A stretch of DNA of 35,988 bases from Vibrio tasmaniensis 1F-187. GTDB taxonomy: Bacteria > Pseudomonadota > Gammaproteobacteria > Enterobacterales > Vibrionaceae. The stretch spans positions 200 through 36,187 of the forward strand of contig NZ_AJZM02000263.1 of NCBI RefSeq assembly GCF_000272405.2, in the 5' to 3' direction. Both the position numbers and the translations under genes were made by a program. This document shows, one piece after another, positions 402-8,484 of the stretch (its first letter is position 1; every line of letters starts with the position of its first letter). The notes under the pieces were generated by a model. It searched no databases. It worked only from the letters and a program-made list of their open reading frames with translations, and had not been told where the DNA came from.

Positions 402-3400
402 TCATATTCGTCCGATTTGACTTGTGAGCTCAAGGCCAAGTTTATGTTGATTATCTGCCAGCCACCGAAGTAAAAACTCAAAGTTTTTGCGCTTCTCTTC
501 TGAGCGGCGCAAAGTTTTTGCCTCATGTTCCCATATTGACAGCAGTAACTTTGCAATTGCATTTTCTGTGTTTTCTCGCTCGCATTTTGACCAGTTGTTG
601 CTATGTAAGGTTACTGCTTTTCGCAAAGAACTAAGGCTATCTAGACGGATTTGAATAGCTGCGTCAGTAGTCAGCCATCGGGCTGTAGAAGAAAGGTGCT
701 TTGATTCAATCTGTTCTCGTGATAGCCATTTTTCTATCCATGGCCAAAGTGAGGTCGCGAAGTCAGCATGGTGTGACTGCCATAATTTTAAGGTACTATG
801 GTGAACACCATACAAAGCTGACCAAACATCTTCTCTGTAATTCCACGCATGATCTTTGGAAAGCTCAGACGCTTCCTTTATGAAATGGTTAGCCAGTTTG
901 ACAAAGTGCTGAGATATGTTATCTGAACAAAGGTTTGTCATATAGAAAAACTCGAGGAAAGTTTCTGCCCAATGATGATATTCGGGAGAGATACTCAATA
1001 ACTGATTCCATATATACTCTGGGCGCTCTTCTGGTTTCATAGCAGATACCGCCGAAGCGAGTTTTTCAAGCAACCAACACTCATCTTCTCCTGGGTGCCG
1101 TTCAGAGTACTCAGTGCTACGATGATTTATCTCCGCGATGCAATAGACTAAAGCGCTCTTCAGAAACCCAAGTCGATATTCTCTCTCTTCGGGTGAGATA
1201 GTTCCATTTAGATCAGATGCAGAGGAGTGAGCAGCTATCAGCAACTTAAAATCCATATAGCTGCTAAAATGCATTGAACGCATCTCATCGTAGTTAGAGA
1301 AAAGTTCTTTATTACCCATTTGGGTCCAATCTAGATCTGGTGCTTCTAATTTCCCGTCGACAAAATTTTCAATAAGTTTTAAACACCAAAGATTCAGCGT
1401 ATTCCTGAGTTGTTCGGTATCATCTTCCTCGGAAAAATTATGATAACGAGACCTCTGATTTATGAACTCGGTTTGCCTTCTGACATGAGCATGCTCAAAT
1501 ATAAGTCTACGCAATTTTAACAGGTCGTCATGTCGGCTTGGGGTCATTGCTTCAACACCACGCACAAGAAGTGCAACCGCTTCGTTGTGGAAAGAAAAAG
1601 CCAATCTGGCAACTAATTCCCTTAACTCTGGATCTTGTGGTTCTTGCTGCCAAAGAGCAACAATTGCTTCAGCCGCAAAACAGTCCCATTCCCAGGTGGA
1701 AACATTTTCATGAGTGTCAATATCACTATGTGGAGGAGGATTTAAAATGAGTTGAGTTAAGATCTCTTGGCACCACTTAAACAAGTCAGGTTGTTTGTTG
1801 ACCCATTCAATGTGCAGACATAGCAGCACAGCAATTCCACTGCAAAGGGCATTTGTTGATAAGTTTGGAAGCTCAAATTGACCAAATGTATCAATATCGC
1901 TCTCCGTTTGAGGTGAATGACTGTCATTTTGGTCATTTTGCCAAATTTCTTTTATGCTCTTTAGGTCTTGTACGAATGCTTCCAACTCATTCTCAGGCAT
2001 AGGCGTCCCTTCTTCTATAAAGTGCCTGCAGTTTACTTGATATAGAATTAAATCCCGGGATCTGAAAAGACTGTCAAATTGGTCGCTTTGCTCTTTTTCT
2101 GCTTGGGGAGGAGTATAAGTATACGATCTTACTACGCCCTCTTCTGACATGACTGGTGTGTAATTGTCCTTAGTAAAAGAATGGACTAACCGACGAAGCC
2201 TTTCATTATTTTCACAGAGTTGACTCTCAACAATTACTTTTTCCCACTCAATAACTCTGTCCTGTAAGAAATTGGAAATTTTCTCATTGGTTAAAAAAAG
2301 ACGGCTAGAAATATCCCAAAGCTTTAATCTTCGATGAGGGTAGGCATTAAATACCCTTTGAATTTTAGTTAGAGATGAAGGTTGTTGTGGTGATGCTATG
2401 TCCAAGTGGCGACGCCCATTAGCTTGAACTTCACTCTCCCAAAAGTAAAGTTCTGCAATTCCAAGTAAAGGCATAAGAGATTCTGTGAATAGATTTGGTT
2501 CTTTACGTCCGACATCCAATAACAAGTGAAGCATTGCAACTGATTGTGCTCGTTCTAGGACGGTGTGAAGCATAGAATTAATATCAGCAGACTTTAATTC
2601 AGTGTATAGATACTGCTCGAGAGCCATAAGTGCTGATGTCATGATGTTGTTTGGTAGAGGACTTCCTAATCCTGCGGACCAACCAAGAGTTCGACAGTCT
2701 CCGTAGAATGTTTTTGTTGTATCGCCAATCTTTACTTCGAGAACACCTAATGAGACTGAACCGAAGATGTCAGTATGCGTTTTTCTGTCTTCATATATTC
2801 GTCGCTCGAGCCATTGCTCTGAGGCGTGATCAATAAGCCTGCATATTGTTTCTACACCCTCCTCAAAGTTTGCCCTTAGCAAGTCGAGAAAAGGACCTCG
2901 AAAATGTGCGGGAGTGGACCATGAGTGAATGGATTGAAAATCTGCATTCCATTCTCGATAACTTGAAGCATCTGGAATAATGCATGACTTAGGCGTAAAA
3001 AGGCATGACAATATAACTTCACGTGCCACTTCAGGTCGGTACCGAATTATATGCTCAAGCCCCCCTTTTTCTAACACTGCGGAGCGAAAAAACTTGTTGA
3101 CGTCGTTATTTGGTGCATCTTCAGAATGTTTATATTCTATGTCGTAATATGGGTTGCTCCAGTCATAGTAGTAGCTATGGCGTTCATTTTTTATTTTTGT
3201 TGTACGTTCGGATGCCTTAAGTGCAAATTCTACAACTTCTTTTTCACATTCAGGCATTCCTGACAAGGCAAGGATAAATAAATCTGTTATTGAGAATTCT
3301 TGGCTTTGTCTATGTGCAGATGTAGAGAGTGCATATTCTCCGAGTAGAATGCCTATTTCACCAGTTTCTCGTCTGTACCTGGTTTGTGGCTTGGAGTGAT

Positions 3401-5876
3401 CCAACCATAGCTGAGCCACTTTACAAATTTCATTAGGTGCAATTTTGGAAATTTGTTCTCGATAAGCATAAAGGAACTCAAGTACAGCAGGCCAATAGGG
3501 CCAGTTGGGGTATCTGAATGAACAAGCAATATCTGTATCTTTCAGGCCTAACAACTTACCAACTTTCTTCATCCTAGGGTCTGGTAACGTTGCAAAAGCC
3601 AAGAAACGCTTTAGTAGGCGGCGAAGGAGATCGCTATTATCTGATAAAAGTTCATCTTTAAGTAATTCTAAGTGTGTCTTGGAGTCCACGGCAAAGACGA
3701 TAGAATCAAGAAGCAAATCAGCTGTAGAGCCCCCTCCAATTTCTTGGAGACTGCGTAATAGAGTTTTCCAATCTTGCACATCTCTCTTAGTATCAAGCAG
3801 TTCAATACCTAGGAGTCGAATAGCTCGGAGCCATAAAGGGGAATCGATACGAGATTGCAAGAATTCTAGAAGGTAATCCTCCTTAGAATGCAGTAGGCGT
3901 AGACGAGCCCAGTCGGCGAATAAGTCGTGGGCAAAAAGAACATTACTGTATTCATCGATGATCAAAATCCCATTTGATTCGAATTCTTCAACAATCGCTA
4001 TTTCAGAAGAAGGGAGATCTGTCATCGGGATTGAAAGTCGAAGTTTGTCAGCTTGCATTTCTGCTATACGCATCAAGATTAGATTTCGACGGTGACGATG
4101 TTTTCCGCTCAATACTTGGCTTTGCCAAAACCAAGATGCAACACTATTTTCACCAACTAAGGGGTCTTCATAGCCAGATCGATTAATCTGAGATGCTATT
4201 AAATCGAGAACTTTTAGGTTCTGAAGTAGCAGAGCTAAGTGTGGTTCTTGTGCTATTCGACGAATTTTTGGTATAGAGTCCCAAATAGGTGATAGCTCAT
4301 TATGACTCGGGGGTTCACATTCGTATAATGCCCAACCGGAGGTATCAATACCTACGTCATGTAGACGTTCTTCTAAATGTGGCCAATCCTGAGTTTGGCA
4401 AGTAACTATGAGTTCACATAAAGCATCTTCTTTATTTACCCTAAGAATATTCAGTAGGTCAGATACGATTGACAGAGATGAAACTTCAAATACACGGTCT
4501 AATCCGTCAAGCACCAGCAATCTAGCGTTAGAGTAAGATTCGAATACTTGATTAAAGGGCATGCCGAGGTTCAAATCTGCATTGAGTGCAGGTAAGTCTG
4601 GGCGCTCGAGAGAGCTGCCTCCTAGCCAAAGAGTAAGCCCATTCTGCGAGTCCAAGCTTTCTGTGTAGGCTCGAACGAGTGCGGACTTTCCTGCTCCTGA
4701 GGCCCCAAGGACCACTACGGTTTTACTCGCAATTAGATTTTCTTCAAGGGCATTCAATTGCTCGGTGCGTTCAAGACGAATGTCGCCAATAGTGTTTCGG
4801 ATACGTTTACGCGTTAGATCCGTAAATTTCCTAATTGTTGTCCAAGCCTTTTCATGTGACGGCAATACTGTTGCAACTGTGCATTCAAGGTGTTCTAGTC
4901 GTTCACCTTGCTTTGATAGAGCTTTTTCAACATGTTGCTGCCAGGTTTCAAGATGTATGAGTCCATTACGAGTGGCCCAATCACGTAATTCGTCAACACT
5001 CCGAGAGGTAATCTCTTGAAGACAAGCACGAGTAAGAATTCGCTCAGATATTTCTGATTTTGAGGATGCTAATAGAACCTGATAAATAAGAATCTGAGCG
5101 AACTCGCTTGCTGGAAGTTTGGACATTGAGGGTTCAGCTTCGATAGTTGTCTTGAGCTGCTCTTCTATACCTGAAGCAGAGCGTAGGTCTGTTATCCAAC
5201 TTACTGAAGTGAAAAAGTCGGTCCAACTTTTATTGTCCTCTTGAAAGCCAATCGCGACCTGTACGTCTTTAGCATACTGCTTTTCGGCACTTGATGCCTC
5301 GCGATCATCATCTGATATTTTAGGCTTTAGATACTTATCAAATAGGGCATTAATTGCTGCCGTTAGTTTTTTAACCTCAGGTTTTAGTTTTTCATTCTTC
5401 TGTTCAAGTAGTGAAGACCAAGTAGATATGACGTCTATCTCCAGATCTAGCCGTTCTTGCTTTTTTACCTTCTTAATACCTGTAGATGAAGAGATCTTCT
5501 GAGTTTTTAAACTTGCTGTAGTTGCGAATACCATGCGAACATTTCGACCATGTTCTTTATGATATTTGTATGACAACAAAAAATTAAAGATAGATTCCCA
5601 AACTGCATCTGACCTTACGTTGACCGCATCCGTGATATCTTTGAGTTGTGTTTCACTCACATCGACAATTGTTCCATTAGGACTAAGAATAAATCGATCT
5701 AAATCTTCGCGACCTTCTACAACGAGTACTTCATTTTCGGAAAGGTTAACCCATTGCAGCGCAGTGTACGCGACCTGGGTTAAATAGCCTCTAATACTTG
5801 CATTAGCGGCTCGGCTGAGGTCTCCCAAGGTGCTTTCTATATTGGCTATGTCAAGTGAAGTGGCGGTTTGGGTCAT
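402..5876 (-). CDS. Large nuclease-STAND NTPase, candidate Avs-type antiphage protein
   Basis: This 1824-residue, uninterrupted protein has three parts. Residues about 25-330 resemble the Cap4/DUF4297 endonuclease fold: RGYLTQVAY (29-37), an acidic VEGREDLD (53-60), then QLK (77-79), which fits the E...D...QxK catalytic pattern of PD-(D/E)XK nucleases. The NTPase follows, with Walker A GASGAGKS (391-398), Walker B LLVLDGLD (453-460) and a sensor-like VTCQ (491-494), as in STAND ATPases. The remaining roughly 1200 residues look mostly helical, with no repeat I can name. Known Avs proteins share this effector-STAND-sensor layout and, on sensing a phage protein, oligomerise and cut DNA. The antiphage role here is inferred from architecture and from the island context beside a disrupted dinB. 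The gene stands alone on its strand, starts at ATG 5876 with a weak ribosome site, and diverges from dinB. It could instead be a related uncharacterised STAND family. Confidence 0.75.
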   Translation of the reverse strand: MTQTATSLDIANIESTLGDLSRAANASIRGYLTQVAYTALQWVNLSENEVLVVEGREDLDRFILSPNGTIVDVSETQLKDITDAVNVRSDAVWESIFNFLLSYKYHKEHGRNVRMVFATTASLKTQKISSSTGIKKVKKQERLDLEIDVISTWSSLLEQKNEKLKPEVKKLTAAINALFDKYLKPKISDDDREASSAEKQYAKDVQVAIGFQEDNKSWTDFFTSVSWITDLRSASGIEEQLKTTIEAEPSMSKLPASEFAQILIYQVLLASSKSEISERILTRACLQEITSRSVDELRDWATRNGLIHLETWQQHVEKALSKQGERLEHLECTVATVLPSHEKAWTTIRKFTDLTRKRIRNTIGDIRLERTEQLNALEENLIASKTVVVLGASGAGKSALVRAYTESLDSQNGLTLWLGGSSLERPDLPALNADLNLGMPFNQVFESYSNARLLVLDGLDRVFEVSSLSIVSDLLNILRVNKEDALCELIVTCQTQDWPHLEERLHDVGIDTSGWALYECEPPSHNELSPIWDSIPKIRRIAQEPHLALLLQNLKVLDLIASQINRSGYEDPLVGENSVASWFWQSQVLSGKHRHRRNLILMRIAEMQADKLRLSIPMTDLPSSEIAIVEEFESNGILIIDEYSNVLFAHDLFADWARLRLLHSKEDYLLEFLQSRIDSPLWLRAIRLLGIELLDTKRDVQDWKTLLRSLQEIGGGSTADLLLDSIVFAVDSKTHLELLKDELLSDNSDLLRRLLKRFLAFATLPDPRMKKVGKLLGLKDTDIACSFRYPNWPYWPAVLEFLYAYREQISKIAPNEICKVAQLWLDHSKPQTRYRRETGEIGILLGEYALSTSAHRQSQEFSITDLFILALSGMPECEKEVVEFALKASERTTKIKNERHSYYYDWSNPYYDIEYKHSEDAPNNDVNKFFRSAVLEKGGLEHIIRYRPEVAREVILSCLFTPKSCIIPDASSYREWNADFQSIHSWSTPAHFRGPFLDLLRANFEEGVETICRLIDHASEQWLERRIYEDRKTHTDIFGSVSLGVLEVKIGDTTKTFYGDCRTLGWSAGLGSPLPNNIMTSALMALEQYLYTELKSADINSMLHTVLERAQSVAMLHLLLDVGRKEPNLFTESLMPLLGIAELYFWESEVQANGRRHLDIASPQQPSSLTKIQRVFNAYPHRRLKLWDISSRLFLTNEKISNFLQDRVIEWEKVIVESQLCENNERLRRLVHSFTKDNYTPVMSEEGVVRSYTYTPPQAEKEQSDQFDSLFRSRDLILYQVNCRHFIEEGTPMPENELEAFVQDLKSIKEIWQNDQNDSHSPQTESDIDTFGQFELPNLSTNALCSGIAVLLCLHIEWVNKQPDLFKWCQEILTQLILNPPPHSDIDTHENVSTWEWDCFAAEAIVALWQQEPQDPELRELVARLAFSFHNEAVALLVRGVEAMTPSRHDDLLKLRRLIFEHAHVRRQTEFINQRSRYHNFSEEDDTEQLRNTLNLWCLKLIENFVDGKLEAPDLDWTQMGNKELFSNYDEMRSMHFSSYMDFKLLIAAHSSASDLNGTISPEEREYRLGFLKSALVYCIAEINHRSTEYSERHPGEDECWLLEKLASAVSAMKPEERPEYIWNQLLSISPEYHHWAETFLEFFYMTNLCSDNISQHFVKLANHFIKEASELSKDHAWNYREDVWSALYGVHHSTLKLWQSHHADFATSLWPWIEKWLSREQIESKHLSSTARWLTTDAAIQIRLDSLSSLRKAVTLHSNNWSKCERENTENAIAKLLLSIWEHEAKTLRRSEEKRKNFEFLLRWLADNQHKLGLELTSQIGRI

Positions 5877-6248: not shown

Positions 6249-7301
6249 ATGCAAAGAAAAATCATACATATAGACCTCGATTGTTACTACGCAGCTATTG
6301 AAGCAAGAGATAATCCAGAGTTACGTAATATTCCAATGGCCATCGGGGGGACAAATGGACGAGGGGTGATTTCTACATGTAATTACGAAGCTAGAGCATT
6401 TGGTGTTCGCTCCGCTATGCCAACAGCAAAGGCACTACAACTTTGTCCAAATCTAACTGTCGTTGCAGGTAACATGAAAAAATACCGTCAGGTTTCTAAA
6501 CAAATTCATGAAATATTTGGCCGTTATACATCTGTTATAGAGCCTCTTTCCCTTGATGAAGCTTATTTAGATGTTTCTGATACAAAGTTATTTATGGGGT
6601 CCGCTACATTAATAGCAGAAGATATTCGTCAAACGATTGTGCGTGAGCTAAAAATTACCGCATCAGCAGGAGTCTCGCCTCTAAAGTTTGTATCAAAGGT
6701 TGCCTCTGATGTTAACAAACCCAACGGTATATGCGTTGTTACTCCTAAAGAAATTCAGACTTTCATTGATGATTTAGATCTTGGAAAAATCAATGGGGTC
6801 GGTAAGGTGACGTTAGAGAAACTGAACAATTTGGGGCTGTTCAAAGGTAAGGATGTCAAAGATCTTGATAAGAGCACCTTGATTAGTCACTTTGGGAAAT
6901 TTGGTATTACTCTCTGGGAACGCTGTAATGGTATTGATGATAGACCAGTGGTTGTTGAGAGAGTACGTAAGTCTGTTGGTGTTGAAAGAACTTTTCTGAC
7001 CGATATTTATACAATGGATGAGTGTTTAGAGGCAATTTGTAACCTGTATTCGGAGTTAGAAGGCAGATTGCAGAAGGTACTTGTAGATAAAATGATTTCT
7101 CGTTTAGGCATTAAGTTAAAATTTAGTGATTTTCAGCAAACGACTGTTGAACATAAACATAATAAACTAGAGAGGGATTTTTTTATTAGTCTATGCGAAG
7201 AGGCTTTATCTAGATCTAATGGTCGAGGGATTAGACTGGTCGGTCTTAGTGTTGGTGTTGAACCTATCGAGCATGTTCGACAGATGAGCTTACCGTTGTA
7301 A
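6249..7301 (+). CDS. dinB: DNA polymerase IV (intact copy)
   Basis: This is a 350-residue Y-family translesion polymerase, close to the usual family length. The catalytic metal ligands are present: D9 in HIDLD, and D103/E104 in SLDEAYLD. The palm and fingers signature TCNYEARAFGVRSAMP, the helix-hairpin-helix region (INGVGKVTLEKL) and the little-finger motif KSVGVERTF are all present. The C-terminus QMSLPL fits a beta-clamp binding motif. It probably copies past damaged bases under SOS control, given the LexA-type box upstream. The start ATG has only a weak Shine-Dalgarno (AGTAGG). It is roughly 60% identical by eye to the truncated copy that follows, too different for a recent tandem duplication, and appears more AT-rich, so it probably arrived with the STAND gene. 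Confidence 0.93.
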   Translation: MQRKIIHIDLDCYYAAIEARDNPELRNIPMAIGGTNGRGVISTCNYEARAFGVRSAMPTAKALQLCPNLTVVAGNMKKYRQVSKQIHEIFGRYTSVIEPLSLDEAYLDVSDTKLFMGSATLIAEDIRQTIVRELKITASAGVSPLKFVSKVASDVNKPNGICVVTPKEIQTFIDDLDLGKINGVGKVTLEKLNNLGLFKGKDVKDLDKSTLISHFGKFGITLWERCNGIDDRPVVVERVRKSVGVERTFLTDIYTMDECLEAICNLYSELEGRLQKVLVDKMISRLGIKLKFSDFQQTTVEHKHNKLERDFFISLCEEALSRSNGRGIRLVGLSVGVEPIEHVRQMSLPL

Positions 7302-7319
7302 TTTTGTAAGTGAGGAGTC

Positions 7320-7361
7320 AGCAAAACAGCAGTAAATTTGGACCGTTTTGCTAGATTTTTT
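7320..7361 (+). terminator. dinB: Rho-independent terminator after intact dinB
   Basis: AGCAAAAC (7320-7327) pairs with GTTTTGCT (7345-7352) across a 17-base loop. A run of six T lies at 7356-7361. It starts 18 bases past the dinB stop. Confidence 0.6.
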
Positions 7362-7464
7362 CGTAAGGCGTTATTGTAAGTGATTTTTCTTAATAGAACT
7401 TTAATATTTTCAATATGATTTTCTATCTAATATAGTCATAACTACGTTTTTTACCCGTTAGTTT

Positions 7465-8484
7465 TGCGACGCAGCTGTTGAAATGAGAGATAATCCTGCT
7501 TACCGAAATCGGCCACTTGCAGTAGGGGGGCATGAAAAGCAGCGTGGCGTTTTGAGTACCTGCAATTACGAAGCTCGCAAGTTTGGTATTCGTTCTGCAA
7601 TGCCGACGGGAAAGGCGCTGCAGCTTTGTCCCAATCTGTTGGTTGTTCCTGGGAGGATGTCGGTCTACGTCGAGATATCGAAAAAGATTCGCGAGGTTTT
7701 TTCTCGATATACATCCATCATTGAACCTCTGTCTTTAGATGAAGCTTTTCTTGATGTCACGGATTCGACGCTGTGTCGTGGCTCGGCAACACTGATTGCT
7801 GAATCAATTCGTCGCGATATCTGGAATGAACTTAACCTGACCGCTTCTGCTGGTATTGCGCCGATTAAATTTTTGGCGAAGGTGGCCTCGGATCTGAATA
7901 AGCCCAATGGTCAGTTTGTAATACCTCCACAAGACGTACAATCAGTGATAGATGAATTGCCACTCGAAAAAATCCCAGGCGTTGGCAAGGTCAGTATTGA
8001 AAAGCTCCATCAAGCTGGCTTCTTTACTTGTAAGGACATTAAGGAATCTGACTATCGAGATCTATTGCTCAGGTTTGGCCGTCAAGGCGCATCACTCTGG
8101 AAGCGCAGCCATGGTATTGATGACAGAGAAGTTATTATTGAGCGTGAACGAAAATCAGTAGGCGTAGAGCGAACTTTTACTCAGAATATTTCTACTTACG
8201 CAGAATGTTGGCAAGTAATAGAAGACAAGCTTTTTCCTGAGCTTGAAGCACGTCTAGAGAAAGCTAGCCCAAGTAAAGCTATCATCAAGCAGGGCATTAA
8301 GCTCAAGTTTGCCGACTTCCAGCAAACCACTATCGAGCACATACACGCCTCTCTCGATCGAGAGCACTTTAAAGAACTGTTGAGTGAGATACTCAAAAGG
8401 CAGCAAGGGCGAGAAATTCGCTTGCTTGGTTTAAGCGTAATGCTACAACCCAAAGACCAGATGCGTCAGTTGAGTTTCTTTTAG
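7465..8484 (+). pseudogene. dinB: 5'-truncated second dinB (resident copy, probably inactive)
   Basis: The frame reads CDAAVEMRDNPAYRNRPLAVGG onwards and matches DinB to its end, including SLDEAFLDV, KSVGVERTF and a clamp-binding QLSFF tail. Homology begins abruptly near base 7466-7469. The usual first ten or so residues, with the first catalytic aspartate (HVDMD), are missing, and an in-frame TAG sits at 7459-7461. The first ATG (7483) has no ribosome site. Without that metal ligand polymerase activity is not expected, although a 333-residue protein could in principle be made. The remaining codons show no stop or frameshift, so the truncation looks recent or the remnant is still under some constraint. 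Its composition resembles that of the neighbouring core genes, suggesting this is the original chromosomal dinB. Confidence 0.85.

Follow-up and report, generated by a model that had tools for sequence, protein, structure and literature searches.

An Avs4-like STAND protein with a likely nuclease N-terminus near the right end of a probable integrative element in dinB of Vibrio tasmaniensis 1F-187

The window analysed here, i.e., a stretch of 35,988 nucleotides of Vibrio tasmaniensis 1F-187 (contig NZ_AJZM02000263.1, positions 200 to 36,187 of the forward strand), contains a gene which very probably encodes an Avs4-like STAND protein with a predicted Avs4-fold sensor and a likely DUF4297/Cap4-type nuclease that would stop phage infection, the whole being carried by a likely SE-like element. 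By its sequence the protein is a divergent relative of Avs4 (AVAST type 4). An earlier note, made from the letters alone, had described a protein of 1,824 residues with a nuclease-like N-terminus, a STAND NTPase with Walker A and B, and a very long helical C-terminus. An unbroken ATG-to-stop open reading frame (ORF) indeed fills the interval, on the minus strand (the note had named no strand), and these parts were found again, the nuclease end with the reservations given below.

402..5876, minus strand: Avs4-like STAND protein, apparently single-gene, 1,824 aa (uninterrupted ATG-to-stop ORF and Avs4 profile matches)

The proposed mode of action is as follows: (i) the C-terminal, Avs4-fold half would sense a phage protein, the likeliest being a conserved protein of packaging or of the capsid, for instance the portal, since the nearest solved relative, Avs4, binds portal; (ii) the STAND NTPase would switch from ADP to ATP and the activated protein would form an ATP-dependent oligomer; (iii) nuclease dimers would form at the N-terminus, and the nuclease, thus switched on, would cut DNA; (iv) infection would be stopped, the cell dying or ceasing to grow. 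Because an Avs4-like predicted sensor is joined to a likely DNA-cutting front end, infection would probably be stopped by DNA cutting.

The kinds of components are known and their pairing looks new. Like Avs4, the query is a single large protein whose effector stands at the N-terminus; it differs from Avs4 in sequence (14-18% identity in structural alignments; about 77 against 1,500 bits, see below) and in its DUF4297-like N-terminus. SeAvs3 (8dgc) is also a STAND protein with an N-terminal nuclease of Cap4/DUF4297 fold (excerpt of PMC11291478), whereas the best match of the query sensor, among the matches listed, is Avs4. Among the papers listed by the literature searches none deals with an Avs4-type sensor that has a DUF4297 end, which is no proof of absence. 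If the reading is true, an Avs4-type sensor is paired here with a nuclease type known from Avs3, CBASS and HerA systems, and at least four different N-terminal modules have been combined with one conserved detector frame.

NTPase and predicted sensor

Both Walker motifs are present and their key residues, including K397, are invariant in the 26 aligned sequences (query included).

3717..4856, minus strand: STAND NTPase and winged-helix part, residues 341-720
4683..4706, minus strand: Walker A, GASGAGKS, residues 391-398 (G391, S393, G394, G396 and K397 in 26/26)
4494..4520, minus strand: Walker B, LLVLDGLDR, residues 453-461 (D457 and D460 in 26/26)
3921..3929, minus strand: MHD-like H650-D651-L652 of the winged helix (invariant, 26/26)
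405..3716, minus strand: predicted Avs4-fold sensor, residues 721-1824

In Walker B, G458, L459 and R461 are as invariant as the two aspartates. Alignment A1 leaves out P0002 (the query's own record) and P0028-P0032.

The NTPase is homologous to that of Avs4. The NCBIfam Avs4 profile (NF041815) matches residues 357-894 with E 5.4e-22, and the profile match to Avs4 of known structure (PDB 8dgf) has E 4.3e-20. The kinship with Avs4 is one of homology and not of membership, the score against NF041815 being 76.9 bits for a curated cut-off of 1,500 bits. The NTPase part also matches SeAvs3 (8dgc) in fold (E about 1e-6), as well as animal NLRs. Among 369 gammaproteobacterial genomes no protein passes the Avs4 cut-off, and 32 have any match, mostly short and about the P-loop. 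The core tree described below therefore holds no true Avs4, and does not place the family inside as against beside Avs4. With the whole protein, Pfam gave sub-threshold matches only, mostly to P-loop families; PADLOC gave weak matches to mad8, DUF4297 and LeoBC; the PDB, searched with the single sequence at E up to 1, gave none.

The long helical C-terminus is borne out by a model: for residues 640-1824 the predicted local distance difference test (pLDDT) is 84.3 and the predicted template modelling score (pTM) 0.72. The structure alignments comprised 20 and 38 sequences. The predicted sensor would share the fold and the length of 8dgf over the whole C-terminus, with 14-15% identity in structural alignments. 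Portal-bound Avs4 (8dgf) is its best match, no other chain being close among the matches listed; Avs3 (8dgc) is absent among the 50 matches listed for this model, which excludes nothing.

The sensor is also the most variable part. Among the query and six homologues 74-89% identical to it (21 pairs), the mean pairwise identity is 89.9% for the nuclease, 86.5% for the NTPase, 79.9% for residues 721-1280 and 71.4% for residues 1281-1824. In eight more distant members the last block alone is lower (57.6% vs. 64.8-65.8%). P0003 is 61-75% identical to the query over residues 976-1350, then again more than 85%, and P0006-P0008 are 47-67% identical over residues 1501-1800. The blocks of low identity differ among homologues, as if segments had been exchanged. 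This pattern fits a phage-meeting part that was diversified, probably with recombination; relaxed constraint may instead account for the variation. If the reading is right, the determinants of phage specificity in Avs could be tested by means of natural variants, since the close relatives keep the effector and vary the sensor.

The trigger may differ from portal, since the sequence of the sensor is distant from that of Avs4 and this is the most variable part. A receptor of the same plan which answers to a terminase, a capsid or an early phage protein has an even chance of being the right reading: the low identity to Avs4, the concentration of variation in the sensor and the different triggers of other Avs types (excerpt of PMC12931631) argue for it, while the match in fold and length to the portal-bound Avs4, with no other listed chain close, argues for portal.

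N-terminal domain and exchange of effectors

The N-terminal domain is likely a nuclease of DUF4297/Cap4 type, judging from direct and transitive profile matches and from the modelled order of helices and strands, the model being of low confidence. DUF4297 is described as a PD-(D/E)xK nuclease whose nearest counterparts are the nuclease domains in SeAvs3 and EcCap4 (excerpt of PMC11291478).

4857..5876, minus strand: DUF4297/Cap4-like nuclease domain (putative), residues 1-340
5697..5717, minus strand: EGREDLD, residues 54-60, acidic half of the putative active site (E54, E57, D58 and D60 invariant, 23/23)
5640..5648, minus strand: QLK, residues 77-79, QxK half (Q77 and K79 invariant, 23/23)

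The 23 sequences are the proteins, query included, with a DUF4297-like N-terminus on an Avs4-like core, and some of them are only 32-33% identical overall to the query. The E...D...QxK motif read in the earlier note is thus conserved in all six positions. An acidic...D...QxK motif is also what the domain has in common with the nucleases of DUF4297-HerA and of Cap4 (CBASS), together with a weak and transitive profile match. The difference is that the nuclease belongs there to a DUF4297-HerA complex or to CBASS (excerpt of PMC11291478), and is here fused to a STAND receptor.

The transitive link passes through intermediates. A search with residues 1-345 found the domain also on P0036, P0037 and P0038, i.e., proteins of 1,008-1,449 residues with TPR repeats. 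The N-terminus of P0036 is homologous to the query domain (E 1.4e-19) and itself matches NCBIfam DUF4297_antiphage (NF042945) over residues 21-253 with E 1.3e-8. All six proteins scanned match this profile at E 0.009 or better. In the family, 11 of 26 members have a DUF4297 match at E <=0.01 in each of two libraries, for 15 of 26 that carry this N-terminus. The position of K79 is occupied by Lys in two of the three TPR proteins and by Arg in P0037. None of the three matches the NTPase profile of the query family, and two have a sub-threshold nSTAND match. P0036-P0038 carry a sensor different from that of the query.

Beside the low Avs4 score given above, the following results count against the proposed reading: (i) matched directly, DUF4297 scores weakly (E 0.0034 with NCBIfam DUF4297_antiphage, residues 22-61, and 0.0047) and over 40 residues; (ii) Pfam Cap4_nuclease (PF14130) has no match to the protein at E up to 1; (iii) the profile-profile comparison with 14 DUF4297 loci gave a score of 23.6 and a probability of 2.4%, for control pairs at 16.2 and 18.5; (iv) the other N-terminal type of the family scored 28.7 against the same loci; (v) the model of the N-terminal domain is unreliable at the motif; (vi) the gene has few relatives in the genus (2 of 196 genomes, the second 21% identical over part of the protein). 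The loci used in (iii) were 14 of the 15 with PF14130, one (L084) being in the wrong reading frame. Because the other nuclease-like N-terminal type scored higher, this score does not single out the query, and in view of this weak direct evidence the domain is termed DUF4297-like. In the model the order helix-strand-strand-strand-helix-strand would fit a PD-(D/E)XK fold of residues 25-200; pLDDT is low and the fold search barely covered the region.

For the nuclease end, the motif and the link by P0036 stand; PF14130 does not match and the score against NF042945 is 16.4 bits for a cut-off of 300. As the curated cut-offs for both Avs4 and DUF4297 are not reached, the protein is classed as a STAND protein that is Avs4-like and whose effector is DUF4297-like. 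That the domain is no longer a nuclease, having a binding or another catalytic role so that the effector acts otherwise, is improbable. The weak direct matches and the poor confidence of the model at the motif would agree with it; six motif residues kept even in distant members and the clear DUF4297 match of the homologous P0036 domain argue for a nuclease.

Several effectors are found on one core. The N-termini of 30 core loci, sorted by eye, comprise 20 of the type FED...DD(I/L)L...S(V/I)KS (the «SVKS nuclease type», a label given by eye), two of DUF4297 type, one phosphorylase, four cyanobacterial ones with an N-terminus of about 55-65 residues (L009, L011, L014, L018) and three that are cut off or unclear (L025, L030, L031). 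The phosphorylase domain of L008 was confirmed (PF01048, E 3e-13), and P0023 carries one of trypsin type (E 3.6e-20), a kind of fusion already published for Avs systems (excerpt of PMC12799240). Three SVKS-type or similar members (L005, P0048, P0029) showed no N-terminal family in either Pfam or NCBIfam.

In the tree of 55 cores (N-termini removed), the DUF4297 type forms one clade of 22 rows, with a Shimodaira-Hasegawa-like approximate likelihood ratio test (SH-aLRT) value of 100, nested among the other N-terminal type. Five N-terminal labels need 4 changes on the tree, i.e., the fewest possible; with two unclassified rows taken as a sixth group, 6 changes are needed vs. 23.8 in shuffles. Most simply read, this tree has the DUF4297 end acquired once. 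The tree search was a quick one, and four rows, all outside the DUF4297 clade, came with a long-branch warning (joins of L023 with L028 and of P0028 with P0044). It leaves out homologues with a core score <=300, save the outgroup P0028, P0029, P0044, P0046 and P0048, and 12 of the 30 loci which are broken, truncated, near-copies or, for L031, too distant (L003, L006, L011, L012, L015, L021, L024-L027, L030, L031). An effector, a STAND NTPase and a sensor, with effectors exchanged among relatives, correspond to the general Avs plan; the parts and this exchange on one core thus uphold the plan of effector, switch and sensor proposed before.

Many of the distant relatives P0048-P0074 (one named Nocardia, one Embleya) show by eye a variant of the N-terminus, FQQAP...VDDL...VRRSP, where Arg seems to have taken the place of the expected Lys.

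Relatives, neighbours and the dinB site

Full-length homologues 74-89% identical to the query occur in records of Vibrio cholerae, V. parahaemolyticus, Pseudoalteromonas and Aeromonas and in metagenome records. Further ones, mainly metagenomic, are 41-48% identical, and another group is common to the query from about residue 305 to the end only. The 30 loci extend across many phyla (cyanobacterial, myxobacterial and other contigs). Twelve plasmid records match the gene, all below 60% identity, and one of them covers at least 80% of the query. Phage records and, in a near-DNA search, E. coli genomes gave no match to the gene; on viral contigs none of 18 candidate stretches was confirmed. The tRNA scan and Rfam (gathering scores) gave no match. 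Two other genomes of the family have open frames of about 1,910 and 1,950 residues (L083, L085) with an N-terminal Cap4_nuclease match, possibly of Avs3 type.

The gene stands alone, as had been proposed: within the window it is flanked by dinB on the right and, on the left, by the end of an ORF, and no partner recurs in a fixed place beside relatives. The survey covered 168 ORFs of at least 80 residues within 4 kb, at 24 of 31 loci (window included). Exceptions are the near-copies L002/L003, two genes common to L004 and L017 in different places, and three single pairs. Because no neighbour recurs in a fixed place across independent loci, a second component of the system is unlikely.

1-117: end of an ORF running in from the left
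6249..7301, plus strand: complete dinB carried by the element (Pfam IMS, IMS_C, IMS_HHH)
7302..7470, plus strand: right end of the element, ending where the native dinB frame resumes (similar boundary in G005, G011, G018, G066)
7471..8484, plus strand: 3' part of the native dinB that the element has split, without its first codons

The disrupted core gene of the earlier note can be named: it is the DNA-repair gene dinB, split just after the DCF(Y) codons, with its 5' piece on another contig. What looked like an island is a likely integrative element with a recombinase-like operon. The two dinB copies are 59% identical over residues 15-347. The missing 5' end (...KIIHVDMDCFY) was found on contig C32 (L122), where it runs into a four-gene operon with genes of 406, 758 and 927 residues, the fourth being incomplete at the contig end. 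Upstream are nqr-like genes and a response-regulator gene (names given by eye). From the two dinB halves, and from three related genomes (G005, G011, G018) in which the complete arrangement is contiguous, we infer that C32 and the window's contig (C262) are joined in the query genome. A tandem dinB is found in 5 of 99 genus genomes (E 1e-80), the second copy starting at residue 12-15 of the dinB used as query in all five. The split and the tandem dinB were seen at window 6249-8484, L122:6577-13536 and loci L063-L069. Ten N stand just before window position 1, i.e., an assembly gap with nearly identical sequence on both flanks.

In SE elements the genes run intA-tfp-intB-srap and the catalytic RHRY motif is confined to intA and intB; imperfect inverted terminal repeats and a footprint of 6 bp are further marks (excerpt of PMC10214605). 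Both they and GInts (PMC5385486) resemble the present element by a four-gene recombinase-like operon at the left end and a target gene split at both ends; they differ in that the target is here dinB, with a replacement dinB. A search of the two main texts for the word dinB found no mention. A regular expression for one part of the recombinase motif gave HHLRH in gene 1, HAFRH in gene 3 and only HEFKK in gene 2. Identity as a GInt was weighed, and SE was preferred since HxxRH lies in genes 1 and 3, as in the part of PMC10214605 on SE elements, rather than in genes 1 and 2. Pfam at E 0.001 gave no family for any of the three large operon genes, and among plasmid records gene 3 has no close match (3 records, best 29.5%). 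Most likely, the gene sits close to the right end of an SE-like integrative element, inserted into dinB and supplying its own dinB.

This position, adjoining the element's own dinB, would also suit a defence against plasmids or mobile elements, or an addiction-like function of the element, in place of an anti-phage one; relatives in many phyla with no neighbour gene common in a fixed place argue against this, and it is improbable. A STAND ATPase of general stress response or regulation, with no antiviral role, to which the likeness of the NTPase fold to animal NLRs might point, is very improbable given Avs4 as best relative by sequence and sensor structure, the swapping of effectors, the sporadic distribution, the likely mobile element and the defence-like genes which relatives carry at this insertion site.

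These genes make the dinB site a likely defence hotspot. Among ten island proteins at this site in three genomes, hand-picked as defence-like in looks, eight match PADLOC at E <=0.001 and two have none. G005 has LmuA (E 4e-87) and LmuB (E 6e-134) of Lamassu, and PDC-S73 (E 5e-186); G011 a partial PDC-S73 match (E 1.5e-32) and a PDC-S06-like ATPase; G018 AbiTii (E 6e-22). For two UvrD-like helicases the GajB matches are family-level only. If true, a dinB site with the element's own dinB would be a ready place to seek defence genes in related genomes. A wider interpretation is tentative and has rather less than an even chance: the family may form a separate Avs type, i.e., a lineage with a sensor of Avs4 fold, well outside the curated Avs4 family, which exchanged a commoner nuclease once for DUF4297, spread among marine gammaproteobacteria by means of SE elements that target dinB and had its recognition retuned by block-wise exchange in the sensor.

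The dinB-site islands at L068:13627-19362, L065:12800-15064 and L063:16370-17308 carry Lamassu LmuA/LmuB, PDC-S73 (Mrr-nSTAND3) or AbiTii.
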